From NCBI GenBank assembly GCA_030148165.1, contig JASBTZ010000017.1, positions 1 through 44,394 of the forward strand: a stretch of 44,394 nucleotides of DNA, in the 5' to 3' direction. Positions 6,451 through 27,676 of the stretch are shown one piece after another. The position numbers and the translations under genes were made by a program. The number at the start of each line of letters is the position of its first letter. The first letter of the stretch is position 1. This stretch comes from Bacteroidota bacterium. Its GTDB lineage: Bacteria; Bacteroidota; Bacteroidia; Flavobacteriales_D; Crocinitomicaceae. The notes beneath the pieces are model-generated. The model ran no database searches. It saw only the letters and a list, made by a program, of their open reading frames with translations, and was not told the origin of the DNA.

Positions 6451-6592
6451 GAATGGATTATTGACCGATCAGCAAGCCTATGATGCTTTGAAACACTGGT
6501 TTGCGTCTGAAGAGGGTGCCCACTACGAATATTCAGCTTATTTTTGGGGATTACGGAAAAAATTGCACGGAGTGAAGAAAAATGACTCGTGA
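6401..6592 (+). CDS. Small hypothetical protein, about 63 aa
   Basis: Unknown protein with the stretch NHKNGLLTDQQAYDALKHWF, looking like a small helical domain. Possible starts are ATG 6374, 6401, 6404 and 6416. ATG 6401 is chosen because GGAG (6387-6390) is 10 nt before it. The end overlaps the release-factor-like gene by 11 nt. Confidence 0.55.
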   Translation: MMKKKMSGHQTIVHNHKNGLLTDQQAYDALKHWFASEEGAHYEYSAYFWGLRKKLHGVKKNDS

Positions 6593-6935
6593 GTTATTAT
6601 TTTCAGTATCCAGCCGTGATTGTAAGTGGGATTATTTCCGGGGAACCGGGAAAGGCGGCCAGAAACGTAATAAAACATCATCAGCAGTACGGTGTACCCA
6701 TGAAGCCTCAGGATCGGTAGGACGGTCTGATGATACTCGTTCTCAACATAAAAATAAAGTAATAGCTTTTAAACGTATGGCTGAGACTGAAAATTTTAAA
6801 AAATGGCACAGAATTCAGGTCGCCCGCCGGATGGGGATGATCCAACAGGCTGAAGAGGCTGTTGAAAGGTCCCTACAAGCCCGAAATTTGCTCGTGGAGG
6901 GCAAAATCAAAGGTAAATGGGCTCCTATAGCCTAA
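6582..6935 (+). CDS. RF-1 domain GGQ protein, ArfB-like peptidyl-tRNA hydrolase
   Basis: A 117-aa protein with the class I release-factor catalytic motif GGQ at residues 25-27, in the context RGTGKGGQKRNKTSSAVR, then SDDTRSQHKNK and a charged helical tail. Known family: RF-1 domain proteins hydrolyse peptidyl-tRNA in the ribosomal A site. Without a codon-recognition domain the size fits ArfB/YaeJ- or PrfH-like rescue factors; the C-terminal tail (KGKWAPIA) is less basic than in ArfB. A GGAG upstream supports the ATG. The phage also encodes a tmRNA, so it may carry two rescue activities. The role in infection is inferred. Confidence 0.85.
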   Translation: MTRELLFSVSSRDCKWDYFRGTGKGGQKRNKTSSAVRCTHEASGSVGRSDDTRSQHKNKVIAFKRMAETENFKKWHRIQVARRMGMIQQAEEAVERSLQARNLLVEGKIKGKWAPIA

Positions 6936-11633: not shown

Positions 11634-11669
11634 AAAATAAAATGGAGGCTTCTGTTCCCAGGTGCCTCC
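11634..11669 (-). terminator. Intrinsic terminator of the tmRNA gene
   Basis: GGAGGC (11644-11649) pairs with GCCTCC (11664-11669). On the minus strand the hairpin is followed by ATTTTATTTT. Confidence 0.85.
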
Positions 11670-11893
11670 TGACCCGTAGGAGCTTACGCAGCTAGTGCGA
11701 ACTCCTCAGAAACGAAATTATCGTTTGCATTTACTATATCAGCCTGCTGACGTGAGCGCCGTCCCGAAGTTCTCCATTCGCTTGGTCTAGCCGTCGATCC
11801 TATTTTCGCCCCCATAATATTCCTGAGTTTATGGTGGAGGCGACGGGTACTGCCCCCGTGTCCAGTCTATCTTCAGCTCACTTCATCGAACTT
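11670..11893 (-). ncRNA. ssrA: Circularly permuted (two-piece) tmRNA
   Basis: Read leftward, the acceptor half comes first: T-arm ACGGG-GGCAGTA-CCCGT (11843-11859), acceptor strand CGCCTCC, discriminator A and CCA (11832-11834). An 18-nt intervening segment follows (11814-11831). The coding half starts GGGGGCG at 11813 and continues GGATCGACGG. GGGGGCG pairs with CGCCTCC over 7 bp with one G-U. The tag frame (11728-11684) encodes ANDNFVSEEFALAA and ends TAA. Order, pairing and tag match permuted tmRNAs, which are processed into two RNAs and rescue stalled ribosomes with SmpB. The gene has its own promoter and terminator. The tag resembles alphaproteobacterial tags. Confidence 0.93.
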
Positions 11894-11899
11894 AAATTT

Positions 11900-11929
11900 A
11901 TTATATCAAATTGTAGCCCGGTTTGTCAA
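11900..11929 (-). promoter_or_regulatory. Leftward sigma70 promoter of the tmRNA gene
   Basis: Minus strand TTGACA (11924-11929), 18-bp spacer, TATAAT (11900-11905). The stop codon of the 55-aa gene lies in the -35 box. Transcription would begin near 11893, just before the acceptor half. Confidence 0.88.
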
Positions 11930-12093
11930 CAAAAATGTACGTTCGATACCCGTGATAAACCAGTTTCTTGAGCTTCTCGGATTGCTTCTTGTATGATTTC
12001 TTCAATAGCTTGCATTTCTTCTGTTGAGATGGTTCTATGGTCTTTTAATAGGATTTTGCGTATTTGATGTGCAGCCCAAATTGCATCTTTCAT
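11926..12093 (-). CDS. Small helical hypothetical protein, 55 aa
   Basis: A leftward frame begins MKDAIWAAHQIRKILLKDHR and continues as an almost fully helical, charged sequence. AGGAG lies about 9 nt before the ATG. It sits between the tRNA-Leu gene and the tmRNA gene; its TGA forms part of the tmRNA promoter. Function unknown. Confidence 0.65.
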   Translation of the reverse strand: MKDAIWAAHQIRKILLKDHRTISTEEMQAIEEIIQEAIREAQETGLSRVSNVHFC

Positions 12094-12111: not shown

Positions 12112-12188
12112 TGGTACGCCCGGTAGGATTCGAACCTACACTGAGAGGATTTTAAGTCCGCTGCCTCTGCCTATTGGGCTACGGGCGC
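12112..12188 (-). tRNA. tRNA-Leu (anticodon UAA)
   Basis: Acceptor GCGCCCG pairs with CGGGCGT, the T-arm is GTAGG-TTCGAAT-CCTAC, and CCA is encoded. The anticodon loop is CTTAAAA, giving UAA. The variable loop is short (5 nt) although leucine tRNAs normally have a long arm, and the anticodon stem has one C-U mismatch; both are odd. Confidence 0.8.
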
Positions 12189-12198
12189 ATGCTCTAAC

Positions 12199-12273
12199 TG
12201 GTCGTGGCGGGAGGAATTGAACCCCCAACTTGCCCGTTATGAGCGGGTCGTTCTACCATTGAACTACGCCACG
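12199..12273 (-). tRNA. tRNA with anticodon CAU (Met or lysidine-type Ile)
   Basis: Acceptor CGTGGCG/CGCCACG, anticodon loop CTCATAA, T-loop TTCAATT, CCA encoded. The first pair is a normal C-G, so it is not a bacterial initiator tRNA. CAU leaves elongator Met or Ile (after lysidine modification) open. Confidence 0.88.
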
Positions 12274-12279
12274 TTGATT

Positions 12280-12353
12280 TGGCAGGGGGTGTAGGAATCG
12301 AACCCACGTAAAAAGCTTCAAAGACTTTTGTTCTACCATTGAACTAACCCCCT
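12280..12353 (-). tRNA. tRNA-Gln (anticodon UUG)
   Basis: Acceptor AGGGGGT/ACCCCCT, anticodon arm AAAGT-CTTTGAA-GCTTT, T-loop TTCGATT, discriminator G, CCA encoded. Confidence 0.9.
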
Positions 12354-12357
12354 ATTC

Positions 12358-12452
12358 TGGCGGAAGGGGAGGGATTCGAACCCCCACGCTTTTTAAGGCT
12401 TACCGGGTTCAAGCCGGCGTCCGTTACCCAGGTTCTTTCGGATTACCCTTCC
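12358..12452 (-). tRNA. tRNA-Ser (anticodon UGA)
   Basis: 95 nt with a long variable arm as expected for serine. Acceptor GGAAGGG/CCCTTCC, anticodon arm GCCGG-CTTGAAC-CCGGT, discriminator G, CCA encoded. Confidence 0.9.
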
Positions 12453-12457
12453 TTGAA

Positions 12458-12534
12458 TGGTACTCGCGGTAGGATTCGAACCTACACTGGGCTGCCTCTA
12501 AAACAGGTGTCTCTGCCAATTGGACTACGCGAGC
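12458..12534 (-). tRNA. tRNA, probably Leu (anticodon UAG)
   Basis: Acceptor GCTCGCG/CGCGAGT and T-arm GTAGG-TTCGAAT-CCTAC are clear and CCA is encoded. The anticodon arm is irregular: CTGT-TTTAGAG-GCAG gives UAG with four pairs, leaving two extra bases; an alternative fold would read UUU (Lys). Its T-arm and variable-loop end match those of the UAA tRNA at 12112, which favours Leu. Confidence 0.65.
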
Positions 12535-12539
12535 TTAAC

Positions 12540-13055
12540 TTAATCCATAAATCCTCTTGCCCACATGTCTGCCGCAAAGCTGGCTGCAAGAGCGTTTGGT
12601 TTGAACTCGGGGGAATATCCTCCTGTCATACCCATAACATAGCCTCTTGCTTCTGCTAGCGCGGTGTGGCTTTCAGCATCTTCTTTGCTATTGATATCAA
12701 TATGGATTTCCCATTCTCGATCTTCAATAACATCCTTTAACTCTTCGTATGCTTCTAACACATAGGTTACTTCTTGCATTAATCGCATTCGCAGGTTAGC
12801 GATCTTACCACTACGAATAACTTTGCCATAATCAGGAAGCTTGTTGATGGCGCCAAATACCCTGCTGCCGTGGTACACGATATCATCCCCTTCACCACTG
12901 GCGCGTCTTACACAAACCACCGTTGCATAGTTGGCCCACACTTCCCCTTTAGATTCTCTACGGGTAGAATCACAACCAAACATTATAACACTCTTAGGGT
13001 GACTGCTTCGTATGTGTTCCTTTATTTCTTCTAGTGGCACATTCCATTTTAACAT
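12540..13055 (-). CDS. RNase H-like protein, YkuK/DUF458 family
   Basis: 171 aa. An early strand ends in an acidic motif (VIMFGCDSTRRES), a following strand is ATVVCVRRA, and a late segment is EIHIDINSKEDAESHTALAEARGYVMGM then KPNALAASFAADMWARG. This order fits the YkuK (DUF458) family of predicted RNase H-fold nucleases, with acidic residues in CDST and HIDIN as candidate metal ligands. It lies inside the tRNA cluster and overlaps the upstream 57-aa gene by 7 nt. Action on tRNA is only a guess from context. Confidence 0.7.
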   Translation of the reverse strand: MLKWNVPLEEIKEHIRSSHPKSVIMFGCDSTRRESKGEVWANYATVVCVRRASGEGDDIVYHGSRVFGAINKLPDYGKVIRSGKIANLRMRLMQEVTYVLEAYEELKDVIEDREWEIHIDINSKEDAESHTALAEARGYVMGMTGGYSPEFKPNALAASFAADMWARGFMD

Positions 13056-13222
13056 AACCCTGTCCTAACTTTTAAAGAATCTACTTCTTTACGCCATAAT
13101 TCTATTTGATTGGCCATAAACTGCATACCAAACTGCCACGGTTCTCTGCCTTTTCTTAGATCTTTTGAATACTGTTCTAACCAATATTCATAGTTTTTTT
13201 CGGCTTCTTCGAGTTTATTCAT
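13049..13222 (-). CDS. Small hypothetical protein, 57 aa
   Basis: A leftward frame starts MNKLEEAEKNYEYWLEQYSK and ends Gly-Leu-Cys. It is charged and helical. Its last codons contain the ATG of the YkuK-like gene. The SD is weak (GGGG about 6 nt upstream). Composition and coupling suggest a real gene. Function unknown. Confidence 0.6.
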   Translation of the reverse strand: MNKLEEAEKNYEYWLEQYSKDLRKGREPWQFGMQFMANQIELWRKEVDSLKVRTGLC

Positions 13223-13267
13223 ACTAACCCCACATCAACCAACTTGGTGCCTCCGCGAAAACTTAAC

Positions 13268-13343
13268 TGGTGCTCCCGGTAGGGCTCGAACCTACTTTTC
13301 ACGGTTTACAAGACCGGATTTTACCATGTTAAACTACAGGAGC
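13268..13343 (-). tRNA. tRNA-Thr (anticodon UGU)
   Basis: Acceptor GCTCCTG/CGGGAGC, anticodon loop CTTGTAA, T-arm GTAGG-TTCGAGC-CCTAC, CCA encoded. Confidence 0.9.
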
Positions 13344-13381
13344 ATTATATCAGACAATGTCGCAAAAAGCAAATAAAATTT

Positions 13382-13458
13382 TGGTGGAGAGGATGGGAAT
13401 CGAACCCACCGCACGAAGCTTGCAAAGCTTTGTCGCCCCCCTTGGAACATGCCTCCCC
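13382..13458 (-). tRNA. tRNA-Ala (anticodon UGC)
   Basis: Acceptor GGGGAGG/CCTCTCC, anticodon arm AAGC-TTTGCAA-GCTT, T-loop TTCGATT, CCA encoded. The D-loop is G-rich (CCAAGGGGGC). Confidence 0.85.
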
Positions 13459-13464
13459 AAATAT

Positions 13465-13551
13465 TTATTTAAATTTTTTATTTATCCACTTTTTGTGATC
13501 TTTTAGTTTGGTGGCGCATTGGTTCATATAGCATTCCTTAGTCCAAGGCAT
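13465..13551 (-). CDS. Possible 28-aa cysteine-containing peptide
   Basis: The frame MPWTKECYMNQCATKLKDHK... starts at ATG 13551 with AAGGTGAT about 7 nt upstream. The same frame stays open back to 13668 and adds CPWDCIFYEGRLQGDC, which looks protein-like, but the only ATG there lies inside the tRNA-Trp gene. A longer product from an alternative start is possible. Confidence 0.4.
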   Translation of the reverse strand: MPWTKECYMNQCATKLKDHKKWINKKFK

Positions 13552-13607
13552 TCTACAATCACCTTGTAGCCGACCTTCATAAAAAATACAATCCCAAGGG
13601 CATGGAT

Positions 13608-13682
13608 TGGCAGGAGTACAAGGATTCGAACCCTGGGTTTTGGTTTTGGAGACCAACGTGTTCGCCACTACACCACACTCCT
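13608..13682 (-). tRNA. tRNA-Trp (anticodon CCA)
   Basis: Acceptor AGGAGTG/TACTCCT, anticodon arm TTGGT-CTCCAAA-ACCAA, T-loop TTCGAAT, discriminator G, CCA encoded. Confidence 0.92.
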
Positions 13683-13699
13683 ATACTTGCATTATATTA

Positions 13700-13777
13700 T
13701 GGTCGGGGTAGAAGGATTCGAACCCTCGGCCTGACGGCCCCAAACCGCCCGCTCTGACCAGACTGAGCTACACCCCG
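13700..13777 (-). tRNA. tRNA-Pro (anticodon UGG)
   Basis: Acceptor CGGGGTG/TACCCCG, anticodon arm GGCGG-TTTGGGG-CCGTC, T-loop TTCGAAT, CCA encoded. It starts only about 6 nt after a terminator, so tRNA expression relies on readthrough or on processing of a longer transcript. Confidence 0.92.
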
Positions 13778-15365: not shown

Positions 15366-18026
15366 ATGGCTTATGGAGTTCTTAGTGCCGAAGACGCTTC
15401 AAAACTAGCAAGAAAGCAAGGATTGGCCCCAGGTGATATAGTTGAGAAGAAGACTTGTCCTCCCTTTGAGGATGGGTCCGTGCTTGAGTGGCATTTGGAG
15501 GTAATCGATGACTACTACAATACGATCTGGAAACCTTATAGAGTACATCCAGATGGCGAGAGAGATCCAGTCTCCTGGGCGCCCTTACCCGGAAGCCAAT
15601 TCGCGTTCTTCCAATGCCCAATCTTTGAATGTCTCTACGAAGGAACAAGAGGACCAGGAAAAACAATCTCACTTATTATGGACTTCGCTAAAGACGTTGG
15701 AAGAGGGCACGGAAAAAGATGGAGAGGAATTCTCTTTCGAAGACAGTTTGGTGACCTTGATGATGTCGTTAGAAAAATTGAGGGCGAATTCGAGAAAATT
15801 TTCGGAGAACAAGACAAAGGGGGAAACTGGAAAGGAGGAACCTGGAGATTCTTGAGATCCAAATCAGAATATATGGTTGAATGGCAAACGGGTGAGAATC
15901 TTTTATTACGTCATATGAAAGACGTGCAAGATTATGAAGAATATCACGGACACGAATACCCTTGGATTGGTTGGGAAGAGCTTACTCAATGGGTTGACCC
16001 AGACGCTTATCTCGCTATGTTTTCTTGTTGCCGCCCAACCGGTTCTGGTGTTCCTACTCGCGTTCGGGCCACTACTAATCCATCCGGTCCTGGGCACAAT
16101 TGGGTTAAAAAAAGATTTAAGTTACCAGATCATCGAGCTAAGATCATCAAGACCCCAGGAGAAAAACCAAGAGTGGCCATTTATGGAGCCCTAAGAGAAA
16201 ATTTCATAGTTCTTCATAGCGATCCAGATTATGATATGAATGTTAGGGTCGGAGCCAGAAATGCTGCCCAGGAAGCCGCATGGATGGAAGGCGACTGGAA
16301 CGTTACGGCAGGAGGAATGATTGACGACTTGTGGAATCCCAACATCCACATCATACCAACCTTTCCCTCATCGGCTATACCTAGAGGATGGCACAAGTCC
16401 CGCGCTTATGACCACGGGCAAGCACGCCCTTTCTCTGTGGGGTGGTGGCTTGAATCAAACGGAGAGCCTATCCAGTGGGAAGGTCGCCGCATTGGGTCCG
16501 TCCGGGGAGACCTCATCTTATGGAAAGAGTGGTACGGGACAACCGGCGAGGTTAACGAGGGCATTAGACTGTCCGCTCGTAAAATAGCTAGAGGCATTTT
16601 AGATAGAGAAGAGGATTGGGGCCTATATGGACAAGTTCATCCCGGCCCAGCAGACACCGAAATATGGAATTTGGATCAAAGAGGCACCGGACGCTCCCCT
16701 GCGGAAGATATGGCTGATGAAGGAGTCCATTGGGAGCCAGCCTCAAAAACTAAAGGTAGTAGAAGACGAGGATGGGAGTTACTTAGAGATAATTTACGTG
16801 GAGCGATACCGCATCCCGATGGAACAAGAGAAGAACCTGGAATCTTCATATGCGACTGCAATAGAGACTGGATCGAGTTGGTGCCACCGATGCCATGTGA
16901 CGAGATCGACCCAGATGATATTCCAAAAAACTATGAGGATCACAGCGCCGATATGTGTTTTACGTCTGATACGGAAGTTTTAACAGAACGAGGATGGTTA
17001 CCTTGGCCAGAGGCTAGGGAAAACGATATTTTTGCTACAATAAACCCAGATACAGAAGCTCTAGAATACCAAAAAGCGTTTGAAATAGTCAGTCTCCCTT
17101 GGGATGGAAATATTGTATTATTTGATAATAAAACTCAACTTGCAGTTACTCCAAATCATTGGATGGCTATACGTAGTCGTTCTGAAAAATATTCAGATTT
17201 TACTTTAAAACAGGCCAGAGATATTACAATTTGGGATAAAATTATTTGTGCTCCTAAAACATGGCAAGGTAAAGATTCTCTTAATCTTCCGTTTGATTGT
17301 AATGACGGTGATTTGGCAGAACTGATTGGGTGGTGGGTTGCGGATGGTTGGTTGCGTAAACTAAATGAGAAATCTCCATTTCAAAGAGACATAGGTATTT
17401 CACAGCATAATTTGAAAGGTCGTGAAGTTTTAGAAGAACTATTGGATAAGACACCTTGGAGATGGAGTTATCGCAATGGTTCTTATATAACTACTAATAA
17501 AGATTTATATGAGTTTTTACGAAACGGATACACTTCTGCTGCTGATAAACACGTTCCTAATTGTATTAAACAAGCGTCTCCGTATTTGATTCAACGTTTT
17601 ATGAATGGGTATATTTCTGGTGATGGTTGGTTTAGAAAAAATGGAACGCGTTGTAGTGCTACAGTTAGTAAAAAATTAGCTGATGATTTACAAGAACTAT
17701 ATGTTAAACTTGGTCGTGCTTCTTCTCAGCGTGTTAGGAAAGCTAAACCAAGTTATAGTATTAAAGGTAGAGATGGTAAATTAATTACAGGAACCAACAC
17801 TCAAGACCAATTTTGGGTTGAAGAATGGGCTATTACTACAGCTATGTTGCGAGATAGCTCTAATAAACCTAATTTTAGACATGAACATTATAAAGGCATG
17901 GTGTACTGTGCCCAAGTGCCAAACGGAACGCTAGTAGTTCGTCGTAACGGACGAGTAAGTGTTACTGGTAATACACGTTACCGTTTAGCATGGGATAGTG
18001 GCAAACTATGGAGAAGGGAGTTTTAA
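15366..18026 (+). CDS. terL: Terminase large subunit containing an intein
   Basis: 886-aa precursor. The packaging ATPase has Walker A GTRGPGKT (residues 93-100), a Walker B-like YPWIGWEE (about 198-205) and, at the C-terminal nuclease end, DHSADM...TRYRLAW. A 339-aa intein (residues 531-869) splits that motif; splicing joins DHSADM to TRYRLAW, giving a mature protein of about 547 aa, normal for TerL. TerL drives DNA into proheads and cuts it. No strong SD is visible; the gene follows the 21-aa peptide by 7 nt. Confidence 0.92.
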   Translation: MAYGVLSAEDASKLARKQGLAPGDIVEKKTCPPFEDGSVLEWHLEVIDDYYNTIWKPYRVHPDGERDPVSWAPLPGSQFAFFQCPIFECLYEGTRGPGKTISLIMDFAKDVGRGHGKRWRGILFRRQFGDLDDVVRKIEGEFEKIFGEQDKGGNWKGGTWRFLRSKSEYMVEWQTGENLLLRHMKDVQDYEEYHGHEYPWIGWEELTQWVDPDAYLAMFSCCRPTGSGVPTRVRATTNPSGPGHNWVKKRFKLPDHRAKIIKTPGEKPRVAIYGALRENFIVLHSDPDYDMNVRVGARNAAQEAAWMEGDWNVTAGGMIDDLWNPNIHIIPTFPSSAIPRGWHKSRAYDHGQARPFSVGWWLESNGEPIQWEGRRIGSVRGDLILWKEWYGTTGEVNEGIRLSARKIARGILDREEDWGLYGQVHPGPADTEIWNLDQRGTGRSPAEDMADEGVHWEPASKTKGSRRRGWELLRDNLRGAIPHPDGTREEPGIFICDCNRDWIELVPPMPCDEIDPDDIPKNYEDHSADMCFTSDTEVLTERGWLPWPEARENDIFATINPDTEALEYQKAFEIVSLPWDGNIVLFDNKTQLAVTPNHWMAIRSRSEKYSDFTLKQARDITIWDKIICAPKTWQGKDSLNLPFDCNDGDLAELIGWWVADGWLRKLNEKSPFQRDIGISQHNLKGREVLEELLDKTPWRWSYRNGSYITTNKDLYEFLRNGYTSAADKHVPNCIKQASPYLIQRFMNGYISGDGWFRKNGTRCSATVSKKLADDLQELYVKLGRASSQRVRKAKPSYSIKGRDGKLITGTNTQDQFWVEEWAITTAMLRDSSNKPNFRHEHYKGMVYCAQVPNGTLVVRRNGRVSVTGNTRYRLAWDSGKLWRREF
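16956..17972 (+). mobile_element. Intein with LAGLIDADG homing endonuclease domain
   Basis: Begins at Cys (CFTSDTEVLTERGW, block A) and ends VPNGTLVVRRNGRVSVTGN before Thr. The usual penultimate His is Gly, a variant known in some inteins. Two LAGLIDADG-like helices, LAELIGWWVADGW and LIQRFMNGYISGDGW, mark a homing endonuclease with both acidic residues kept. The DNA is visibly more AT-rich than the flanking terminase, as expected for recent transfer. Confidence 0.9.
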
Positions 18027-18028
18027 AA

Positions 18029-18211
18029 ATGAACATTCCGCCAGACGTATACGCCAATATTGTTAAACAAAGACCCATTAAGAAAATCTCTCATAATGAC
18101 GCCCAAGGTAAAGCACAACCAACTCAAGGAAGAGTAATAAATGGTCCGGTTAACGATCCAAAACCTGAAGGCAGAGCCATTGATGAGTCAGAATTTATGA
18201 ATATCGAATAG
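18029..18211 (+). CDS. Hypothetical protein, 60 aa
   Basis: Hydrophilic, probably disordered protein starting MNIPPDVYANIVKQRPIKK. AAGGGAG lies upstream of ATG 18029; an earlier in-frame ATG at 18008 overlaps terL. It sits between terL and portal. Function unknown. Confidence 0.6.
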   Translation: MNIPPDVYANIVKQRPIKKISHNDAQGKAQPTQGRVINGPVNDPKPEGRAIDESEFMNIE

Positions 18212-18276
18212 TGTGTAGTCTTAATTGGAGGACTCTTTGGTCATTACAGCGGAGAATTTTGGCGGCTAAAACCCCC

Positions 18277-18305
18277 TTGACTAAAGAATCCATTAAATGT
18301 ACTAT
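18277..18305 (+). promoter_or_regulatory. Rightward sigma70 promoter before portal
   Basis: TTGACT (18277-18282), 17-bp spacer, TACTAT (18300-18305), in an AT-rich 160-bp gap. Confidence 0.7.
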
Positions 18306-18375
18306 AAATTTGGGAAAAAACAGCAAAAATTCCTAAAATTTTCCTATAATTTATTAAAAAAGAGGAAAACTCCGA

Positions 18376-19953
18376 GTGCCAACAGATAAATTTGCAGGAA
18401 AAGATCCTGAATCTCCCGCTACTACTTCGTTTGCATGGGATACGATGATTTCTAAATGGGAAATGATCGACACCCTACTGGCTGGAACCGAATCCATGCG
18501 GAAAGCCGGGATGACTTACCTTCCAATTCACGAAGCGGAGAGCCGTTTGAACTATTTGGAACGGCTTAATAAATGCACCCTTTTGAATATGCTCGAAATT
18601 ACGCTAGATTCTCTTGTAGGTAGACCTTTTTCTGATCCGGTCGAATTAAATTCGGATATGCCAGATAGCATTAGAGATTTAATGGAAGATGTTGATCTAC
18701 AAGGAAATGATATCACTGTATTTGCAAGAGATTGGTTCAGACAGGGATTGGCTAAAGGGTTCTGTCATGTTCTCATAGATTTTCCTCGTATTCCTGATGA
18801 GGATTTTGGGACCAGAACGCTTGAAGACGATTTGAAAGAGGGGCGTAGGCCATATTGGATTCTTGTTAAACCAGAAGATTTAATTTTCGCAGCCGCTGAT
18901 TTCGTTCAAGGTAAAGACGGGGTAATGCGAGAAACTCTCACTCATGTACGCATTCATGAGGTCGCTGTTGAACAAGCTGGATTTGCTGAAGTTTTTAAAG
19001 AACGCATCAGAGTATTAGAGCCAGGGTTCTTTTGGTTATTCGAAAAAGAAGAAAAGTCTAGGAAAAATCAAAAAGATAGATGGGTTTTAATAGATCAAGG
19101 CGAAACAGGTCTGCCTGTTATTCCTTTGGTCACCTTTTATGCGGATAGGGCGGATCTTATGTTGGCTAAACCGCCTCTTGAAGATTTAGCCCATCTTAAT
19201 ATACGTCATTGGCAATCAACTTCAGATCAGATTTCTGTTTTAACCGTAGCTAGGTTCCCAATGTTGGCTGTGGCGGGCGCTGTTGAACAACCCGGTGCAG
19301 AGATGGCTATTGGTCCTAAACAATTACTTGGGACCAAGGACCCTAACGGAAAATTTTATTACGTGGAACACACGGGCAAGTCCATTGGTGCCGGTCGGCA
19401 AGATCTTATGGACCTTGAGGATGAAATGGCCCATTATGGTGCTCAGTTCCTTAAGAGGAAGACCGGTAATGAGACCGCCACTGCTAGAGCATTGGATTCA
19501 GCTGAAGCTACCAGCCCTCTACAGGATTATACTGTGCGATTTATGGATGCTGTTTCTAATGCTCTGAATCTCATGGCCATGTGGATTGGGGAAGAAACAG
19601 GCGGCTCTATTTCTATGAGTACCGATTTTGGGCCTGAAGTTGCAGAGAATGCCGATATTGAAGCTCTTACTGATGCTCGTAAGCGTCGTGATATTAGCCG
19701 TATTTCTTGGATTGAAGAAATGCAGCGCCGTGGTGCTCTTGCAGACGACTTTGACGCTGACGAAGACCTACAACGTATCCGAGATGAGGATGTTAGACTT
19801 ACTGCTGGCACCGTTATCATGGATAGTGAAAAGATTAATGATGAGGAAGTGCTGCTATCTAATCGCAATATGACGTTGACGCAAAATGCGCCAGCGCAAA
19901 ATCCTAGTGGCGGGACAACACAAACCTCCCAAACACAGGCCACTCAAGGATAA
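18376..19953 (+). CDS. Portal protein, DUF4055 family
   Basis: 525 aa. The domain order fits DUF4055 portals: an N-terminal helical part (NYLERLNKCTLLNMLEITLDSLVGRPF), the strand-rich PYWILVKPEDLI section, then LNIRHWQSTSDQISVLTVARFPMLAVAG and an acidic helical C-terminus with a Gln/Thr tail. Starts at GTG with AGAGGA about 9 nt upstream. The portal forms the dodecameric ring at one capsid vertex and docks TerL. Confidence 0.85.
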   Translation: MPTDKFAGKDPESPATTSFAWDTMISKWEMIDTLLAGTESMRKAGMTYLPIHEAESRLNYLERLNKCTLLNMLEITLDSLVGRPFSDPVELNSDMPDSIRDLMEDVDLQGNDITVFARDWFRQGLAKGFCHVLIDFPRIPDEDFGTRTLEDDLKEGRRPYWILVKPEDLIFAAADFVQGKDGVMRETLTHVRIHEVAVEQAGFAEVFKERIRVLEPGFFWLFEKEEKSRKNQKDRWVLIDQGETGLPVIPLVTFYADRADLMLAKPPLEDLAHLNIRHWQSTSDQISVLTVARFPMLAVAGAVEQPGAEMAIGPKQLLGTKDPNGKFYYVEHTGKSIGAGRQDLMDLEDEMAHYGAQFLKRKTGNETATARALDSAEATSPLQDYTVRFMDAVSNALNLMAMWIGEETGGSISMSTDFGPEVAENADIEALTDARKRRDISRISWIEEMQRRGALADDFDADEDLQRIRDEDVRLTAGTVIMDSEKINDEEVLLSNRNMTLTQNAPAQNPSGGTTQTSQTQATQG

Positions 19954-19966
19954 ATAGGAGATAAAA

Positions 19967-20299
19967 ATGTCTGAACAAGAAGAAGATAATGTAGTGTTTC
20001 TTAATATGCAACAGGGTGATATGGTCAAAATTGCTTCTTCTGTTCTAGAAGCGACACACAATGACGAGATTCAATGTTTGTTCTTCACAGCTATTGATAG
20101 TAACGGTATTCTCAAAATGGGACGTGCTGGAGGATTTAGAAATCTTCAAGATTTTCTACTTCTACTTGGCGGATTTGATGTTCAAAAAGACTATGTTATG
20201 ACCAAGATGGCCCTTTTAGAAGAGGACGATTTTGAAACGGAGACGTATGAGGGCGAAGAGTATGACGACGAATACGATGAAGAGTATGACGAAGAATAG
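19967..20299 (+). CDS. Hypothetical protein with acidic C-terminus, 110 aa
   Basis: A small alpha/beta domain (FLNMQQGDMVKIASSVLEAT...) followed by a run of Asp/Glu/Tyr (EYDDEYDEEYDEE). AGGAG precedes the ATG. Acidic tails occur on DNA-mimic or chaperone-like phage proteins. Its end overlaps the next gene by 14 nt. Function unknown. Confidence 0.65.
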   Translation: MSEQEEDNVVFLNMQQGDMVKIASSVLEATHNDEIQCLFFTAIDSNGILKMGRAGGFRNLQDFLLLLGGFDVQKDYVMTKMALLEEDDFETETYEGEEYDDEYDEEYDEE

Positions 20300-20795
20300 G
20301 TTGCCCCCACATGGTTTCCGACAATTACTTGGGAGAGCCCCTGGTTTTGATATGAAAGGTCAAGGGGCTCCGGTCGAGCTAGAATATGATGAGAGCCTCT
20401 ATGCCACTCTTGTTAAAGTTCAGAGAAAGGTCAATAATCAAATAGAGTATCGTTCAGATGATGGTGATTATTGGGACCATGACCCTGAAATTAAGACTTG
20501 GAAGGGCTGGCTCACCGGCAAACTATATATGCGCAGGTATGGTGATTGTGAAGACTACGCCTTGGTGAAGTACCAGGAACTAGTCAAAGAGGGCGTTCCT
20601 AAGGAAGCATTACGGCTGGTCCTTTGTAGTTACAAAACAACTTATCATCTGGTTTTAGCAGTCACAACTAAAAAAGGCATTTTCATATTAGATAATCGTA
20701 TGAGCCCTGTGTACTGGATGGAGAGGGGCGAAAAATTTCTCTATAATTGGATCATGTGGTCTGTTCCAGGGCAGTTCTTATGGGAGTCAGTGTAA
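20286..20795 (+). CDS. Transglutaminase-like cysteine peptidase (BTLCP family)
   Basis: About 169 aa from ATG 20286 (20277 also possible). The catalytic pattern is clear: GDCEDYALVKYQEL (Cys about 88), TTYHLVLAV (His about 121) and FILDNR (Asp about 136). This is the bacterial transglutaminase-like cysteine proteinase family, often found in Alphaproteobacteria. Its place between portal and capsid genes suggests a role in virion assembly or cell-wall entry, but the substrate cannot be read from sequence. Confidence 0.75.
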   Translation: MTKNRLPPHGFRQLLGRAPGFDMKGQGAPVELEYDESLYATLVKVQRKVNNQIEYRSDDGDYWDHDPEIKTWKGWLTGKLYMRRYGDCEDYALVKYQELVKEGVPKEALRLVLCSYKTTYHLVLAVTTKKGIFILDNRMSPVYWMERGEKFLYNWIMWSVPGQFLWESV

Positions 20796-20805
20796 CAGAG
20801 GGGGC

Positions 20806-20834
20806 TTGCAATTTAAATAGCTTTGTGGTATACT
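20806..20834 (+). promoter_or_regulatory. Rightward promoter of nrdJ
   Basis: TTGCAA (20806-20811), 17-bp spacer, TATACT (20829-20834), about 40 bp before the nrdJ start. Confidence 0.65.
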
Positions 20835-20872
20835 GATTTCTTTGTTAATTAAGAACGCCTTGGAGAAAATTC

Positions 20873-22666
20873 ATGCTACAAACTGTAGACGCGGTAGAAG
20901 CCGCCAACCCCCCTATATCTCTTGTTACTACCCCTAAAGGAAATTCTAGTCACGGCCCCCAAACAGAACTAGGCGACTTGATTCATAGGATCAAATATCG
21001 TTCTGAACGAGAAAGTTTCAGAGATGCTATGAATCGTGTTGCTTCGTCATTGACAGATGATGATGAGCACTTTCATGCTTTTCGTGATTCCTTACTTAAT
21101 ATGCGTTTTATGCCAGCGGGCAGAATTCAAGCCGCTATAGGAACCACCAAAGCGGTAACTCCCTACAATTGTTTTGTATCCGGCACGATAGAAGATAGCT
21201 TTGTGGATGGCCACGGCTGCATAATGGATCGTGCTCGCGAAGCTGCCGCTACTATGCGCATGGGCGGTGGAATAGGGTATGATTTTTCAACTCTACGTCC
21301 ACGAGGCGAACTAATCAAGAAATTGATGTCTCATTCCTCTGGTGCTGTTTCCTTCATGGAGATTTTCGATGCTGTTTGTAAATGTGTGGCAAGCTCTGGA
21401 CACAGACGTGGAGCCCAGATGGGGGTCTTGCGTATTGATCACCCCGATATCGAAGAATTTATTCATGTTAAACAAAATGAACACAAACTTAACGGATTTA
21501 ATATTTCCATCGCCATCACCGACGAATTCATGGAATGCGTGGTTAGCGGAAGACCATTTGCTTTAACATGGGGAGGGCGTGTATATAGAGAAGTTGATGC
21601 TCTAACATTATGGGAGCAGATTATGCGTTCTACGTGGGATCATGCTGAACCCGGTGTTATTTTTATTGATTCCATGAACTCTATGAATAACTTGTACTAT
21701 TGTGAAAAGATTTGTGCGACCAATCCGTGTAGCGAGCAGCCTCTACCACCTTACGGCGCTTGTCTTTTGGGTTCTTTGAATCTAACGCGTTTTATTTCTA
21801 AGCAAGGCACGCGCTGGGACTTCGATTGGGATCAATTGGTAGAGGATATCTCCGTAGCTGTGCGTGCAATGGATAATGTTGTAGATGTTGCGCGTTATCC
21901 TCTGTATGAGCAAGAGAAAGAAGCCAAGAACAAACGTAGAATGGGTTTAGGCGTCACTGGATTAGCAAATGCTGGTGAAGCTCTCGGTTATTCATATGGT
22001 AGTGGAGAATTTTTAGATTTTGAGCGCCAAGTCATGAATTTGATCACAAATGAATCATATAAGGCCAGTGCGCTCTTAGCTAAAGAAAAAGGCGCGTTTC
22101 CCATGTATAACGAGACGTTGTATCTTGCAGGACGCTTTGTTAATAGCGGAGCATTGAATGATGAAACTCTTGATCATATTGCTAGATACGGCTTGCGGAA
22201 TTCTCACCTCATTTCTGTGGCTCCTACTGGTACTATCAGTATGTCCGCTGATAATGTTAGCTCCGGTATTGAGCCTGTTTTTGCCTATGAGGAGGATCGA
22301 ACTATCAATCTACCGGAAGGGCCGGGACAGTATCATGTTGAAGATTACGGTTCCAAGTTTTTTGGTGTCAAAGGAAGAACCGCTGAAAAAGTCACCGTTG
22401 AACAACATTTAGCTGTTTTGGCTACCGCACAGTATTTTACTGATTCTGCGGTCTCCAAAACTTGTAATGTTCCTTCTAACACAGAATGGAAGGACTTCAA
22501 AGAAATCTACCTGAAAGCGTGGCAATTAGGATGTAAAGGTCTTTCTACTTTTCAAGTGGGCGGCAAGAGAGCAGGCATTAGAAATTCGAAAGACGAAGAA
22601 CAGGTAGACGAGCCCTCTAGCTTCTGTTATATTGATAGTGTCACAGGGCGAAAAGAGTGCGAGTAA
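20873..22666 (+). CDS. nrdJ: Class II (B12-dependent) ribonucleotide reductase
   Basis: 597 aa. Active-site motif NPCSEQPLPPYGAC (about 284-297) with the Cys/Glu pair, first redox Cys in TPYNC (100), and PTGTISMSADNVSSGIEP. The C-terminal pair CYIDSVTGRKECE is the reducing motif typical of class II enzymes. It converts ribonucleotides to deoxyribonucleotides using adenosylcobalamin, without oxygen. It has its own promoter and sits amid head genes rather than in a nucleotide-metabolism cluster. The host or medium must supply B12. Confidence 0.9.
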   Translation: MLQTVDAVEAANPPISLVTTPKGNSSHGPQTELGDLIHRIKYRSERESFRDAMNRVASSLTDDDEHFHAFRDSLLNMRFMPAGRIQAAIGTTKAVTPYNCFVSGTIEDSFVDGHGCIMDRAREAAATMRMGGGIGYDFSTLRPRGELIKKLMSHSSGAVSFMEIFDAVCKCVASSGHRRGAQMGVLRIDHPDIEEFIHVKQNEHKLNGFNISIAITDEFMECVVSGRPFALTWGGRVYREVDALTLWEQIMRSTWDHAEPGVIFIDSMNSMNNLYYCEKICATNPCSEQPLPPYGACLLGSLNLTRFISKQGTRWDFDWDQLVEDISVAVRAMDNVVDVARYPLYEQEKEAKNKRRMGLGVTGLANAGEALGYSYGSGEFLDFERQVMNLITNESYKASALLAKEKGAFPMYNETLYLAGRFVNSGALNDETLDHIARYGLRNSHLISVAPTGTISMSADNVSSGIEPVFAYEEDRTINLPEGPGQYHVEDYGSKFFGVKGRTAEKVTVEQHLAVLATAQYFTDSAVSKTCNVPSNTEWKDFKEIYLKAWQLGCKGLSTFQVGGKRAGIRNSKDEEQVDEPSSFCYIDSVTGRKECE

Positions 22667-22852
22667 GTGGCGCGTATAACTAAAAATCTTAGACTTAAGA
22701 CTCGGCCAAAGCGTCCTATGACGGCTGAAAGAAAAGCATTATGGGACGCTTCGCATGAGCAAAAAGCAGACAGCCGACGAAACACAAGTGATGAGAACGT
22801 CATCAAGCGGGAGAAAACTACCGAAACCGAAGACCAAATTAGTAGGAACTAA
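22667..22852 (+). CDS. Small basic protein, 61 aa
   Basis: GTG start abuts the nrdJ stop (TAAGTGG). The product MARITKNLRLKTRPKRPMTAE... is very basic then polar, probably disordered. No clear SD, so coupling to nrdJ is assumed. It ends 1 nt before the start chosen for the next gene. Confidence 0.45.
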   Translation: MARITKNLRLKTRPKRPMTAERKALWDASHEQKADSRRNTSDENVIKREKTTETEDQISRN

Positions 22853-22853
22853 C

Positions 22854-23402
22854 GTGGCTTTAGAGAATCAACGTAAAATAGCTAATAAAAGAAAGAAAAT
22901 ATTTCTTAAAACTTTGGCTAAAACTGGTATGGTTACACCTTCAGCTAAAGCCGCCGGCTATGCCGATTCTCAAATGGTTAATAGATATAGACGAGAAGAT
23001 CCTGAATTTGCTGCTGCGTGGGAAGAGGCTGAAGCTGCCGGAATTGATAGATGGGAGGAAGAAGCTACCCGTAGAGCTTTTGAAGGTGTTGAAAAAGGCG
23101 TATATTTTAGGGGCGAGCGTGTGGATACTGAAAAGCAGTATTCAGATGGACTCGCCCAATTCATGTTAAAAGCAAAACGTCCAGAAATTTACGGAGAGAG
23201 GAAACAGGTGGATGTCAACGTCGGAGGACGGGCGACCATTGCCGTACTCCCTATGGCTGGCAATGATGCAAGCGAATGGGAACGAATTGCCCAAGAAGTC
23301 AACGACACCAACAAAAGAGCCCTCGAAAAAGAAAAAGAAGAAGCAAAAATTATTGACGCGGAGTATGAAGACGTAACACCAAGTAAAGTAAAAAGGGTGT
23401 GA
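22854..23402 (+). CDS. terS: Terminase small subunit-like protein
   Basis: About 182 aa from GTG 22854, which has TAGGA upstream; an ATG at 22755 would add 33 polar residues but lacks an SD. The order is an HTH (FLKTLAKTGMVTPSAKAAGYADSQMVNRYRREDPEFAAAWEEA), a helical region, then LAQFMLKAKRPEIYGERKQVDV, the hallmark end of one small-terminase family. It should recognise the packaging site. Unusually it is 5 kb downstream of terL; a shorter HTH relative lies right before terL. Confidence 0.7.
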   Translation: MALENQRKIANKRKKIFLKTLAKTGMVTPSAKAAGYADSQMVNRYRREDPEFAAAWEEAEAAGIDRWEEEATRRAFEGVEKGVYFRGERVDTEKQYSDGLAQFMLKAKRPEIYGERKQVDVNVGGRATIAVLPMAGNDASEWERIAQEVNDTNKRALEKEKEEAKIIDAEYEDVTPSKVKRV

Positions 23403-23403
23403 T

Positions 23404-23826
23404 ATGTGGCCATTATTTAGTTGGTTAGTTAAACCAAAATATTCTTGGAGTGTTTTCGCTGCCGCCTGTTGTTTAGGAGTTTTTATCGGGACTGCTATAG
23501 CTGAACCTGATGAAAAGGAAATCGGCCCTCCTATACCTTTAATAACTACTCCTGGTTGTGCGCCTCATGCTGTATTAAAAGAACAACTTAAGAAAAACTA
23601 TAAAGAAATACCCGTGGCAATTGGTGTTTCCCAAACAAATCTTCTTGTGACTATTTATGCAAGTAGCCTGAAAGACGGTAATTTTACTGTAGTTATCACA
23701 AAACCAGGATCAGAAAGTTCATGTATTGTGGGTGCTGGAACCCGATTCAACTTTATTTTGGCCCCGTTTGGGTATGATGCAAAACATGAAATAGATGGTT
23801 CAGACCATCAATGGCAATCCCCTTGA
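23404..23826 (+). CDS. Membrane-anchored or secreted protein, 140 aa
   Basis: N-terminal hydrophobic segment (VFAAACCLGVFIGTAIA) then a small domain: CAPHAVLKEQLKKNYKEIPV, TIYASSLKDGNFTVVITKP and SSCIVGAGTRF. This resembles a family widespread in Alphaproteobacteria and their phages (pattern C....L...Y.E....G, ...T...P.G..C....G). Function unknown. The start overlaps the previous stop region (GTGATATG). The stop lies within the next promoter's -35 box. Confidence 0.65.
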   Translation: MWPLFSWLVKPKYSWSVFAAACCLGVFIGTAIAEPDEKEIGPPIPLITTPGCAPHAVLKEQLKKNYKEIPVAIGVSQTNLLVTIYASSLKDGNFTVVITKPGSESSCIVGAGTRFNFILAPFGYDAKHEIDGSDHQWQSP

Positions 23827-23850
23827 CAAGTTAGGAAAATAGTGTATTCT
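23823..23850 (+). promoter_or_regulatory. Rightward sigma70 promoter before scaffold
   Basis: TTGACA (23823-23828), 16-bp spacer, TATTCT (23845-23850). The upstream gene's TGA is inside the -35 box. Confidence 0.7.
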
Positions 23851-23894
23851 AATACTATGAAAAACCTCAGCCAATAACTTTTGGAGTTTAAGAG

Positions 23895-24764
23895 ATGCCA
23901 GAATTTGATTTTGAGAAGTACAATACTGTCGAAATTGACAGCTTTGAAGATACAGTGCCCGGTAAATATCGTGGTCTCTATGAGCGAGCATCTGATGATA
24001 ACGGAAATGAAGTTTATCAGATTTCAGGAGATGTACGTAACATCGTTAACGATTATATCGGCACTAGTAAGGCGCTTGATAAAGCCCGTGCAGATAAGAA
24101 AAATGCGAGTGATGAATCTGCCGGTCGTCGTAAAACCATTCAAGCTTTTGAAGATTTTGCCTCTTCTCTTGGTTTAGAAGTAGGAGATGATGGCGTTGTA
24201 GCGGCCCTTCAATCTCATGTTGAAGATCTTGTTGGTCAGGTTAAGGGCGGTCAAGAAATGCGCGTTAATCTAGATAAGATCAAGCAGGATTATGAGAAGA
24301 AACAGGCAGAAGCCTTAGCGGTTAAAGATAGAGAAATTAAAGATCGTGATGCTGCCTTGGAGCGCCATCTTATTTCTGATGTTGCCACCCGAGAAATTGC
24401 TAATGCTAAAGGCAAAGTTAAGGTTCTTATGCCGCACGTTAAAAGCCAATGTAAGGTAGTTCGTGACGAAAATGGTGATTATGCGGTGCGTGTTGTAGAT
24501 TCTCAAGGCGATTTTCGTTCAAATGGCGCCGGTGGCTGGATGAATGTCTCTGATTTGGTGGCAGAAGTTAAGACAGACCCAGATTTTGCTGCCAACTTTG
24601 AAAGCGATACCCAGCTTGGTGGCACTGGAAAGAGGCCTACGGACCGTAAATCTAATCCTCTTCCACGTCAAACTGGCGAAGACAGGTCCGCTAATCAGAA
24701 AATTGCGGCAGGTCTTGATCGTCTTGTTCAATCTGGTGGAAAAAGGGCCGGTATTGGCAGCTAA
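23895..24764 (+). CDS. Capsid scaffolding protein
   Basis: 289 aa, acidic and helical, with a long charged coiled coil in the middle (KIKQDYEKKQAEALAVKDREIKDRDAALE as separate heptads) and a basic glycine-rich tail (VQSGGKRAGIGS). Length, composition and position immediately before the major capsid gene fit a scaffold. GGAG precedes the ATG. No protease motif seen. Confidence 0.75.
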   Translation: MPEFDFEKYNTVEIDSFEDTVPGKYRGLYERASDDNGNEVYQISGDVRNIVNDYIGTSKALDKARADKKNASDESAGRRKTIQAFEDFASSLGLEVGDDGVVAALQSHVEDLVGQVKGGQEMRVNLDKIKQDYEKKQAEALAVKDREIKDRDAALERHLISDVATREIANAKGKVKVLMPHVKSQCKVVRDENGDYAVRVVDSQGDFRSNGAGGWMNVSDLVAEVKTDPDFAANFESDTQLGGTGKRPTDRKSNPLPRQTGEDRSANQKIAAGLDRLVQSGGKRAGIGS

Positions 24765-24922
24765 TGGTAGATTTAGCTAACGTAAAAAGATTTCTACTTG
24801 ATCAACCAGAGATGTATCATCAACAATACTATGATACGTCTCTGGGTAAAGTAGTTGATGACCCTGATTGTAGGTGTCGTAAGTGTAATAAAAAAGTACT
24901 TAAGTACGAAAACCGCAATTAG
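24764..24922 (+). CDS. 52-aa protein with CRCRKC motif
   Basis: Begins MVDLANVKRFLLDQPEMYHQ, with three cysteines (CRCRKC) near the end that could bind metal. Coupled to the scaffold gene by TAATG. Lies between scaffold and capsid. Function unknown. Confidence 0.6.
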   Translation: MVDLANVKRFLLDQPEMYHQQYYDTSLGKVVDDPDCRCRKCNKKVLKYENRN

Positions 24923-24935
24923 AGTCAAAAGTCGG

Positions 24936-24964
24936 TTGACAAGGTTATCAAACTTTGTTAATCT
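24936..24964 (+). promoter_or_regulatory. Promoter and long leader of the major capsid gene
   Basis: TTGACA (24936-24941), 17-bp spacer, TAATCT (24959-24964); a TATAAT 4 bp further has too long a spacer. It is followed by a leader of about 170 nt with short complementary segments (GGTTTCGGAACC) and no convincing frame. Confidence 0.7.
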
Positions 24965-25144
24965 TATAATTGAATTTGGTTCGGACAGGACAAGCGGAGA
25001 GATTCTGATTGTCCAAGGTCCTCAAGGATTTGGTCCTCTAAGGGTGATCCGATACGGGACCGTTATCAAAGACGGCGAGATGCCGTGCCTTGGTTTCGGA
25101 ACCGTATTACTAACATTAACCCTATATAATGGAGGGCTTTTAAT

Positions 25145-26104
25145 ATGCCTACAGTTACGCTTACAGAGTCAGCAAAGTTGGCTCAAGACGAACTGGTGGC
25201 AGGCGTGATCGAAAACATCATCACTGTCAACCGTATGTTCGAAATCCTACCTTTCGATGGTATCGAAGGTAACGCTCTTGCGTACAATCGTGAAAACGCG
25301 CTTGGCCCTGTGGCCCGTACCGGCGTTGGTGACACTGACGGTGTTATCGGCACTGGTGGTTCTAATGCCGCTCGTCAGGCGGCGAAAGATCCCGCAACCT
25401 TCACCCAGGTTACTAGTACGCTAACCACAATCATGGGTGACGCCGAAATTAACGGCCTTATCCAGGTTACTCGTTCCGGCGACGGTAACGACCAGACTGC
25501 CGTACAGATCGCTTCTAAGGCGAAGTCTGCTGGTCGTCAGTATCAACAGGACTTCATCACCGGTGACGGCACCGATTTCTCATTCCCCGGCCTTCAGTCT
25601 CTTTGTGTTGCTGCTCAAGCCGCTAATACCGGTGCGAACGGCGGCGCCTTGAGCTTTGCCTTCATGGATGAGATGATGGACTTGGTTGTGGACAAGGACG
25701 GTCAGGTTGACTACATGATCTTCCCTGCTCGCACCCTTCGCTCATATTACGCACTGCTGCGTGCCCTTGGTGGTGCGTCTATCGGTGACGTTGTTGAGCT
25801 TCCTTCTGGTACTCAGGTTCCTGCTTATCGCGGCGTTCCTATCTTCCGCAACGACTACCTGCCTGTTAACCAGGTAAAGGGTTCTGGAATGGACCAGACT
25901 ACTATTTATGCTGGTACTTTCGATGATGGTTCTCGTCAGCACGGTATTGCTGGTCTGACCGCTTCTGAGATGGCTGGTATTCAGGTAGTTGATGTTGGTG
26001 AATCCGAAACCAAGGACGAACGCATTTGGCGTGTTAAGTGGTATGCCGGTCTGGCTCTGTTCTCTGAAAAGGGACTAGCCTGTGCCGATGGTATTACTGA
26101 CTAA
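25145..26104 (+). CDS. Major capsid protein, HK97-like
   Basis: 319 aa with MCP-like layout: N-terminal helix (SAKLAQDELVAGVIENII), an E-loop-like section with NRENALGPVART, a spine helix region (QIASKAKSAGRQYQQDFITGD) and a C-terminal P-domain strand (ERIWRVKWYAGLALFSEKGLA). Strong SD (GGAGG). Codons are mostly C- or T-ended optimal forms, as expected for the most abundant virion protein. A possible hairpin (GGGGG 26116-26120 with CCCCC 26138-26142) follows the gene. Confidence 0.85.
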   Translation: MPTVTLTESAKLAQDELVAGVIENIITVNRMFEILPFDGIEGNALAYNRENALGPVARTGVGDTDGVIGTGGSNAARQAAKDPATFTQVTSTLTTIMGDAEINGLIQVTRSGDGNDQTAVQIASKAKSAGRQYQQDFITGDGTDFSFPGLQSLCVAAQAANTGANGGALSFAFMDEMMDLVVDKDGQVDYMIFPARTLRSYYALLRALGGASIGDVVELPSGTQVPAYRGVPIFRNDYLPVNQVKGSGMDQTTIYAGTFDDGSRQHGIAGLTASEMAGIQVVDVGESETKDERIWRVKWYAGLALFSEKGLACADGITD

Positions 26105-26171
26105 CATAGGTTAACGGGGGTGAGCCTGACGGGATTGCCCCCAATCCTATAAACCTTGGAAGGAAACGCAA

Positions 26172-26762
26172 ATGGCGGAATTCTTAGTACAACTGCCTGA
26201 ACAAACCGGGTTTACCCTTGAACAGGGTAAGAACGCCGTTATTGTATCTGCTAATAATGCTGCTGATGCACGTATTATGGCTCGGCGGGTGTCTAATGTA
26301 GATGTTGCTGATTGGGCTAATGCCACAGTCACTACTCTAGCTGCCGCTTCTGATATGTTAGGTTGGCGTTTTCGTTGCCAAATCATTACTCCTGCTGGTG
26401 TAGTTCTTAATGACATCACTTATACCGGTATTGCTTCTGATACTTTGGATGATATGGGAGCAGGTCTTGCAGCATTATTTAATGTTCCTTATACTGCATC
26501 ATATAATGCCACCACTCAGGTTATTATTTTAGCTACCGGTGCTGCTGTAGATGATCTTGGGGATCATGAAGTACGTGTTGGTATGTTCCCCCCACAAAGC
26601 ACAAGCGACAATGATGATCTTCGTCTTAATACTGAGATTAATGGTGTGGCTGGTGCCGTTGCTTCCGTTACAGATCAAGGTGTAGCTTCTGCTAATCTTG
26701 AAGTTACTCTTGCGGCGGATGCTTGGGTTGTTCCAAGTGTTCCTGTATTAATTAAAGCTTAA
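26172..26762 (+). CDS. Virion protein, paralogue A, 196 aa
   Basis: Begins MAEFLVQLPEQTGFTLEQG; beta-rich with alanine-rich segments. The next gene repeats the same frame of motifs (LV..P.QTG.TL, VSANNAADA, ADWANATVT, a GTG-rich C-terminus). Position right after the capsid suggests a decoration or head protein. SD GGAAGGA. Not recognised from a named family. Confidence 0.65.
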   Translation: MAEFLVQLPEQTGFTLEQGKNAVIVSANNAADARIMARRVSNVDVADWANATVTTLAAASDMLGWRFRCQIITPAGVVLNDITYTGIASDTLDDMGAGLAALFNVPYTASYNATTQVIILATGAAVDDLGDHEVRVGMFPPQSTSDNDDLRLNTEINGVAGAVASVTDQGVASANLEVTLAADAWVVPSVPVLIKA

Positions 26763-26774
26763 AAGGAGGCTAAA

Positions 26775-27617: not shown

Positions 27618-27676
27618 TAAAAAAATTAAGGGTTATAAAATCCTTAATACCCTAACTATAATTTAGGAGAATGACG

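Follow-up and report, generated by a model that had tools for sequence, protein, structure and literature searches.

The window, meaning the whole stretch of 44,394 nucleotides analysed, carries on its minus strand a complete circularly permuted (two-piece) tmRNA gene of the alphaproteobacterial type (Table 1). A covariance-model search with Rfam matched the alpha_tmRNA model RF01849 with 124.6 bits (E 1.1e-33, gathering score 50) and the tmRNA_permuted model RF04321 with 112.9 bits (E 2.2e-21, gathering score 47). The order of parts is permuted, running from the T arm through the acceptor 3' strand, the CCA, a spacer and the acceptor 5' strand to the tag. All seven acceptor pairs are standard, the third being the G-U pair of alanine identity, and the tag frame is present with its resume codon and stop, the encoded peptide ending in ALAA. 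The stop codon lies 26 nt from the AACAGAA motif, and the predicted fold energy of the whole tmRNA has a z of -2.24 against shuffles. ARAGORN, run on the window, did not report the gene.

The first-pass annotation had proposed such a permuted tmRNA, with the Rfam alphaproteobacterial model as its check, and had read an encoded CCA ending at 11832, an 18-nt spacer and then GGGGGCG; the model match lies above the gathering score, and each of these elements is found in the sequence. The acceptor pairing, described there as nearly perfect, is more fully the seven-pair stem with its G-U given above. The position proposed, 11684..11890, has the right site, on the minus strand, with an end that falls short, as the Rfam match reaches 11641. 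Of the promoter and terminator also claimed for the gene, the promoter stands as a full consensus match, from a scan of the region that returned 11 promoter-like sites (5.2 expected), two of them matching at 12/12 positions. A transcription start near 11893 is plausible, since the promoter match ends at 11900 and 11893 is the first base of the RF04321 match. The supposed terminator hairpin is instead part of the RNA, because it corresponds to the 3' element conserved in that family model, alpha tmRNA; the terminator scan, whose loop limit was 8, made no call there.

Table 1. Features of the tmRNA gene and its phage surroundings, in positions of the window.
Feature	Position	Strand	Basis
Protein of 117 aa with RF-1 domain (GGQ)	6582..6935	+	PF00472 62.5 bits, cut-off 35; phrog_3122 E 5.9e-28
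alpha_tmRNA match, whole, with upstream flank and 3' hairpin	11641..11933	-	RF01849
3' element, hairpin GGAGGC...AACAGAA...GCCTCC	11641..11672	-	aligned to RF01849 3' end
Permuted tmRNA core	11684..11893	-	RF04321
Tag frame ANDNFVSEEFALAA and stop	11684..11728	-	sequence reading
Acceptor 5' strand GGGGGCG, inferred 5' end of coding piece	11807..11813	-	
Intervening segment of 18 nt separating the halves	11814..11831	-	excision from mature RNA inferred
Discriminator A and encoded CCA (ACCA)	11832..11835	-	sequence reading; CCA at 11834-11832
Acceptor 3' strand CGCCTCC	11836..11842	-	7/7 pairs with 11807-11813
Sigma-70 type promoter, TTGACA-N18-TATAAT with extended TG	11900..11929	-	12/12 consensus match only
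tRNA cluster (Leu, Met, Gln, Leu, Thr, Ala, Trp, Pro), upstream of tmRNA	12112..13777	-	ARAGORN, 8 tRNAs
Possible Ser-like tRNA with long variable arm	12358..12451	-	sequence reading, tRNA-like T-arm repeat
Head, packaging and tail region (terminase large, portal, class II-like RNR, scaffold, major head protein, connectors)	15366..44394	+	right end open

Comparative support for the stems comes from an alignment of 36 permuted tRNA-like domains, drawn from the window, from phage-collection and IMG/VR loci and from three bacterial loci. Base pairing holds in 99.3% of the cells of the two stems (shuffles, 80.2%), and the covariation score is 0.469, against 0.095. The acceptor stem is paired throughout (100%), two of its seven pairs changing on both sides, as do three of the five T-stem pairs. 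The third pair is G-U in all 36 rows, an invariance that is partly built in by a row-picking motif favouring GGGG; as this motif favours CCACC as well, the constancy of the outer acceptor pairs is also partly built in. A chance match was ruled out by the E-values together with the covariation.

The surroundings are those of a phage, as had been recognised from the first. The major head protein (MCP) shares 74.0% identity with its counterpart in Stenotrophomonas phage Bhz59, the portal 55.7% with that of Bordetella phage CN2 and the RNR 64.5% with that of PaMx28; by the homology of its head genes, the phage is YuA-like, probably one of the Mesyanzhinovviridae. Its genome is incomplete here, since the window is an entire contig and ORFs run off the right end. 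No integrase was found among the 40 window ORFs scanned with PHROGs, and no riboswitch is listed in the window at the Rfam gathering score. A search for SmpB, suggested by the first-pass annotation, likewise yielded none in the 44,394 bp of this incomplete phage genome. At the left end of the contig (1-133), a 19-bp repeat runs head-to-tail and likely marks an assembly break.

Seven of the eight tRNAs of the cluster also score above the Rfam gathering score. The candidate at 12358-12451, which sequence reading suggests to be a further Ser-type tRNA of the cluster, folds no better than shuffles and is listed by neither ARAGORN nor Rfam. A Ribonuclease H-like protein (12540-13055, minus strand; PF04308, 59.9 bits) is encoded within the cluster. 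Upstream of it, two minus-strand stretches (13950-13787 and 14173-14007) have sigma-70 matches at 12 and 11 of 12 positions and terminator-like hairpins; considered as possible small RNAs, they match no Rfam family above gathering and have fold z values of -0.91 and -2.46. Adjoining the tmRNA on its other side (7932-10932, minus strand) are two genes whose products have domains for carbohydrate binding (CBM96, CBM6) and of the polysaccharide lyase 14 family, possibly depolymerase or tail parts. The terminase large subunit (15366-18026, plus strand; 886 aa) contains a LAGLIDADG-like domain at residues 744-797, and its insert has RNR and thymidylate synthase family matches in between, as expected of an intein.

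Another gene that touches on ribosome rescue is that of the 117-aa RF-1 domain protein. PF00472 covers residues 7-69, the GGQ motif is present and the codon-recognition domain is missing, giving an ArfB-like short form; the C-terminus reads as mildly basic, the ArfB criterion being a basic tail that enters the mRNA channel. The protein could be a second ribosome-rescue or release factor. Its best phage match (48.2%) is in mycobacteriophage Nanosmite, which has the RF-1 protein and tRNAs and, in the 34 kb seen, no annotated tmRNA. Among 138 loci of other viral tmRNAs, taken from partial records, one weak RF-1 hit (E 0.002, 32 residues) was obtained, and 46 loci of relatives gave none; the pairing of tmRNA and RF-1 protein is therefore not general there.

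The first-pass annotation knew phage tmRNAs as one-piece molecules, a view that does not hold. One survey reports tmRNA in 402 of 18,146 phage genomes; of the 133 unique structures, ARAGORN classed 53 as two-piece, 50 of which came from marine or aquatic samples, and a two-piece tmRNA is described in phage Melnitz (PMC9004378). The available text of a second source counts 79 unique bacteriophage sequences among 97,179 tmRNA sequences (PMC11915505), and that of a third lists ten phages with ssrA (PMC4131195). Since permuted phage tmRNAs are already in the literature, the window gene is not a first.

Additional cases were found among sequence records. BLAST of the tmRNA gene against phage records returned eight, and all five of those searched with RF04321 matched, including Rhodobacter phage RcRudolph (103.6 bits), Erythrobacter phage vB_EliS-L02 (91.9 bits) and Mesorhizobium phage Cp1R7A-A1 (99.3 bits). 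None of these three records has a tmRNA annotation at the matched stretch; in RcRudolph (OP009285, about 49133-49421), a hypothetical protein, RCRUDOLPH_61, is annotated over the permuted tmRNA. A fourth of the five matching records, MT836065, is an unverified faecal clone. Scanning IMG/VR for a tag pattern brought up at least 120 stretches, and 106 of 120 match a model of the tRNA-like domain; RF04321 matched all 38 IMG/VR records to which it was applied, 36 of them over the cut-off. Three IMG/VR loci (L015, L016, L017) and their copies are shortened forms with 14-aa tags, missing some 40-50 nt of the segment that separates the tRNA-like part from the tag in the window gene.

Among relatives of the window phage, the gene is rare. 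No permuted tmRNA was found in 12 related isolates, nor was the permuted form, the only one sought, found in 42 IMG/VR records that encode a relative of the head protein, many of these records being fragments. Relatives of the 171-aa neighbour gene in IMG/VR yielded 12 pattern-matching stretches, none of them confirmed. In the available text of one paper retrieved for this phage group (PMC13222311), tmRNA is mentioned solely in the reference list. The permuted gene is thus not generally needed by such phages, and what the window adds to the known cases is a group in which none of these isolates or IMG/VR relatives carries it.

The tags of viral and bacterial genes were compared. They were read for the window and 79 of 129 non-bacterial R1-hit loci, alongside bacterial genes, with 4 of 158 rows (two bacterial; two phage, L159 and L162) skipped for want of a readable boundary or tag. 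A 14-aa tag occurs in 55 of 80 viral rows, under a viral tag pattern that limits length to at most 14 aa, and, in a probable misreading, in 1 of 78 alphaproteobacterial rows. The first-pass annotation had called the window tag alphaproteobacterial-like but longer (VSEEF); the tag itself is as described, and its length is unremarkable for a phage. The 14-aa EE[FY]A pattern is found in nine viral stretches, and the exact phage-type tag in no stretch of the bacterial genomes; a looser pattern that includes the EE[FY]A one, applied to 84,980 genomes, gave three stretches, all encoding 13 aa (Parvularcula twice, Aquisalinus once). The nearest viral tag, ANDNFASEEFALAA (locus L224), is one residue off that of the window. 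Additionally, the signature TGGAG after TCGAC is present in 33 of 78 viral rows, the window included, versus 0 of 76 bacterial rows. A short stretch after the tag does not discriminate, as lengths under 60 nt occur in 34 of 76 bacterial rows as well as in 75 of the 76 viral ones.

Trees separate the same two sets of genes. Over 154 rows, the viral and bacterial labels change twice, against a mean of 51.3 when shuffled, and they also change twice in a GC-matched tree (35 bacterial and 73 viral rows). Without the tag, a single label change remains (99/87), and the window falls inside an all-viral set of 76 rows at 100/97. The last tree leaves out eight bacterial rows whose tags were doubtful and takes in one further row (L342); the labels change twice, the only misfit being the faecal clone MT836065, whose gene groups with viruses in the no-tag tree and with bacteria in this one. 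Here the window falls to the viral side of a 99/87 split, but its branch is long and attaches close to that split, and an alternative topology that groups the window with the bacterial rows is not rejected (p-AU 0.509). Tag and acceptor patterns were the main means of choosing the viral set, the tag scan supplying at least 120 stretches, and the trees cover alphaproteobacterial genes other than the lowest-scoring matches (L342 excepted), leaving betaproteobacterial and cyanobacterial genes aside. Within this sampling, there is fair evidence that the permuted tmRNAs of phages form a lineage separate from the alphaproteobacterial ones, and weaker evidence that the window tmRNA belongs to it. A separate lineage with its own tags would raise the direct question of whether phages choose the proteins that are degraded during infection.

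As to function, we infer from the gene anatomy that the phage tmRNA probably serves in ribosome rescue and product tagging during infection, in dependence on host SmpB. ClpXP, alanyl-tRNA synthetase, SmpB and the processing enzymes have established roles in tmRNA function. The host RNA polymerase would transcribe the gene, and tRNA-processing enzymes would excise the spacer, leaving two base-paired pieces that the host alanyl-tRNA synthetase could charge by way of the G-U third pair. Host SmpB and EF-Tu would then deliver the tmRNA to ribosomes that have stalled on broken mRNA during infection, where the tag ANDNFVSEEFALAA would be added and the product removed by the host protease ClpXP. In concert with the clustered tRNAs, and possibly the RF-1 protein, the tmRNA may keep ribosomes working as host genes shut down. 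Use of host SmpB is consistent with its absence from all 50 tmRNA-phage records searched. This reading is supported by the like gene carried by RcRudolph, vB_EliS-L02 and Cp1R7A-A1, isolated phages of alphaproteobacteria, as well as by the tRNA genes on the strand of the tmRNA, the intact ALAA tag, the full promoter match, the covariance-model scores and the conserved stem pairing; against it count the one-piece tmRNA of the genome bin to which the contig was assigned and the absence of the gene from the isolates and IMG/VR relatives searched.

It is unlikely that the charged or SmpB-bound tmRNA mainly competes with the host tmRNA or, through its own tag, alters protein degradation. A parallel would be phage DS6A, whose tmRNA consists of little beyond the tRNA-like domain; according to the accessible text of the same source, a molecule similar to this form strongly inhibits tmRNA, perhaps by titrating SmpB (PMC4131195). 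The phage-like tag, whose 14-aa pattern recurs in viruses and has no 14-aa match in bacterial genomes, would also fit such a role. However, unlike DS6A, the window gene keeps a full tag frame, a resume codon and a 3' domain, all needless for a pure decoy.

That the gene is a recently captured host gene or an integration relic, functionless in the phage, seems quite improbable. Its absence from all 12 isolates and all 42 IMG/VR relatives does imply that it was gained in the lineage of the window, and ssrA is often used by integrating phages, as stated in the accessible part of PMC11915505. Nevertheless, the gene is intact, with promoter and tag present, no integrase accompanies it among the scanned ORFs, and it is unlike the bacterial genes sampled, scoring 124.6 bits with RF01849 versus 195-313 bits in chromosomal ssrA among the matches listed. 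The preferred reading remains SmpB-dependent rescue and tagging.

Within a genome bin of 18 contigs and 3.5 Mb, the window is contig 12 and holds the only RF01849 match; contig 14 of the bin carries a one-piece tmRNA (RF00023, 142.1 bits) with smpB close by. This second gene (L002, 1501-1903) has an unusual tag, DNTSFNLAA, with Asp first. An identity of the window tmRNA with the one-piece tmRNA of the bin's host was ruled out, the latter being a separate gene on another contig. No 16S was found in the bin, so its identity rests on T9SS sorting domains above the cut-off in two of four bin proteins scanned, which we take to indicate Bacteroidota.

Several comparisons set the window apart from its bin. 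Shine-Dalgarno-like 4-mers precede 21 of 32 window genes versus 2 of 67 bin genes (Fisher p 1.5e-11, with starts crudely called as the first ATG), a sharp difference that makes misbinning likely. GC content is 43.9% in the window versus 39.4-41.3% in five bin stretches. Tetranucleotide correlations with four bin stretches are 0.02-0.23 for the first 20 kb and 0.34-0.51 for the second, versus 0.48-0.69 for the bin stretches among themselves. Of 395 genomes in the class, two carry the portal, one being that of the window and the other having it on a stretch of 68.9% GC, and among 150 genomes of the bin's family a permuted tmRNA above the cut-off occurs in one, that of the window itself, with one more, weak match. 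The contig is probably misbinned, and the host is likely a member of the Pseudomonadota, more specifically an alphaproteobacterium. Thus, although the contig was binned with that genome and smpB is present there, it is very improbable that the phage truly infects the Bacteroidota-like bin host, so that a permuted tmRNA of foreign origin would enter a cell that has a one-piece form, given the differences in Shine-Dalgarno use, in the tetranucleotides of the first 20 kb and in the distribution of portal and permuted tmRNA, the sigma-70 promoter matches in the window, and an MCP and portal nearest to those of phages of Pseudomonadota. The tag had initially been taken as a clue to the host, to be followed by comparison with the host's ssrA; the clue is complicated by the one-piece ssrA of what is probably a misbin. 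A phage contig in a bin can in this way make a genome seem to have two tmRNA forms.

A broader scenario can be put forward only tentatively. Phages of Alphaproteobacteria and their neighbours may share a separate tmRNA lineage, marked by a private tag of 14 residues (ANDN[F]xxEE[FY]ALAA and kin) and handed from phage to phage, not freshly captured from hosts; the YuA-like phage may have joined this tmRNA to tRNAs and RF-1 as a portable two-tier rescue kit, much as Alice-type mycobacteriophages would have done independently. The presence of RF-1 protein and tmRNA in one genome suggests that ribosome rescue is worth doubling for some phages.

Among known systems, phage Melnitz (MZ577095) likewise bears a permuted tmRNA of the alphaproteobacterial type with no smpB found, and its tag reads ANDNYVPVDYALAA; it is a T4-like myophage with a glutamine riboswitch reported beside ssrA, whereas the window phage is YuA-like (PMC9004378). 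RcRudolph, vB_EliS-L02 and Cp1R7A-A1 have the RF04321 match in common with the window, but theirs is a longer gene with a longer spacer, in different phages. The chromosomal ssrA of Alphaproteobacteria has the same architecture and matches the same model, RF01849, over the cut-off in 174 of 190 sampled genomes, with the higher scores noted above. Mycobacteriophage Alice (Bixzunavirus) resembles the window phage in combining a tmRNA, annotated as such, with tRNAs and a small protein of the RF-1 type, and the RF-1 proteins of the Alice group are 44.6-45.5% identical to that of the window (Alice 45.5%). Alice is, however, an unrelated actinobacterial phage, and its tmRNA is presumably one-piece.
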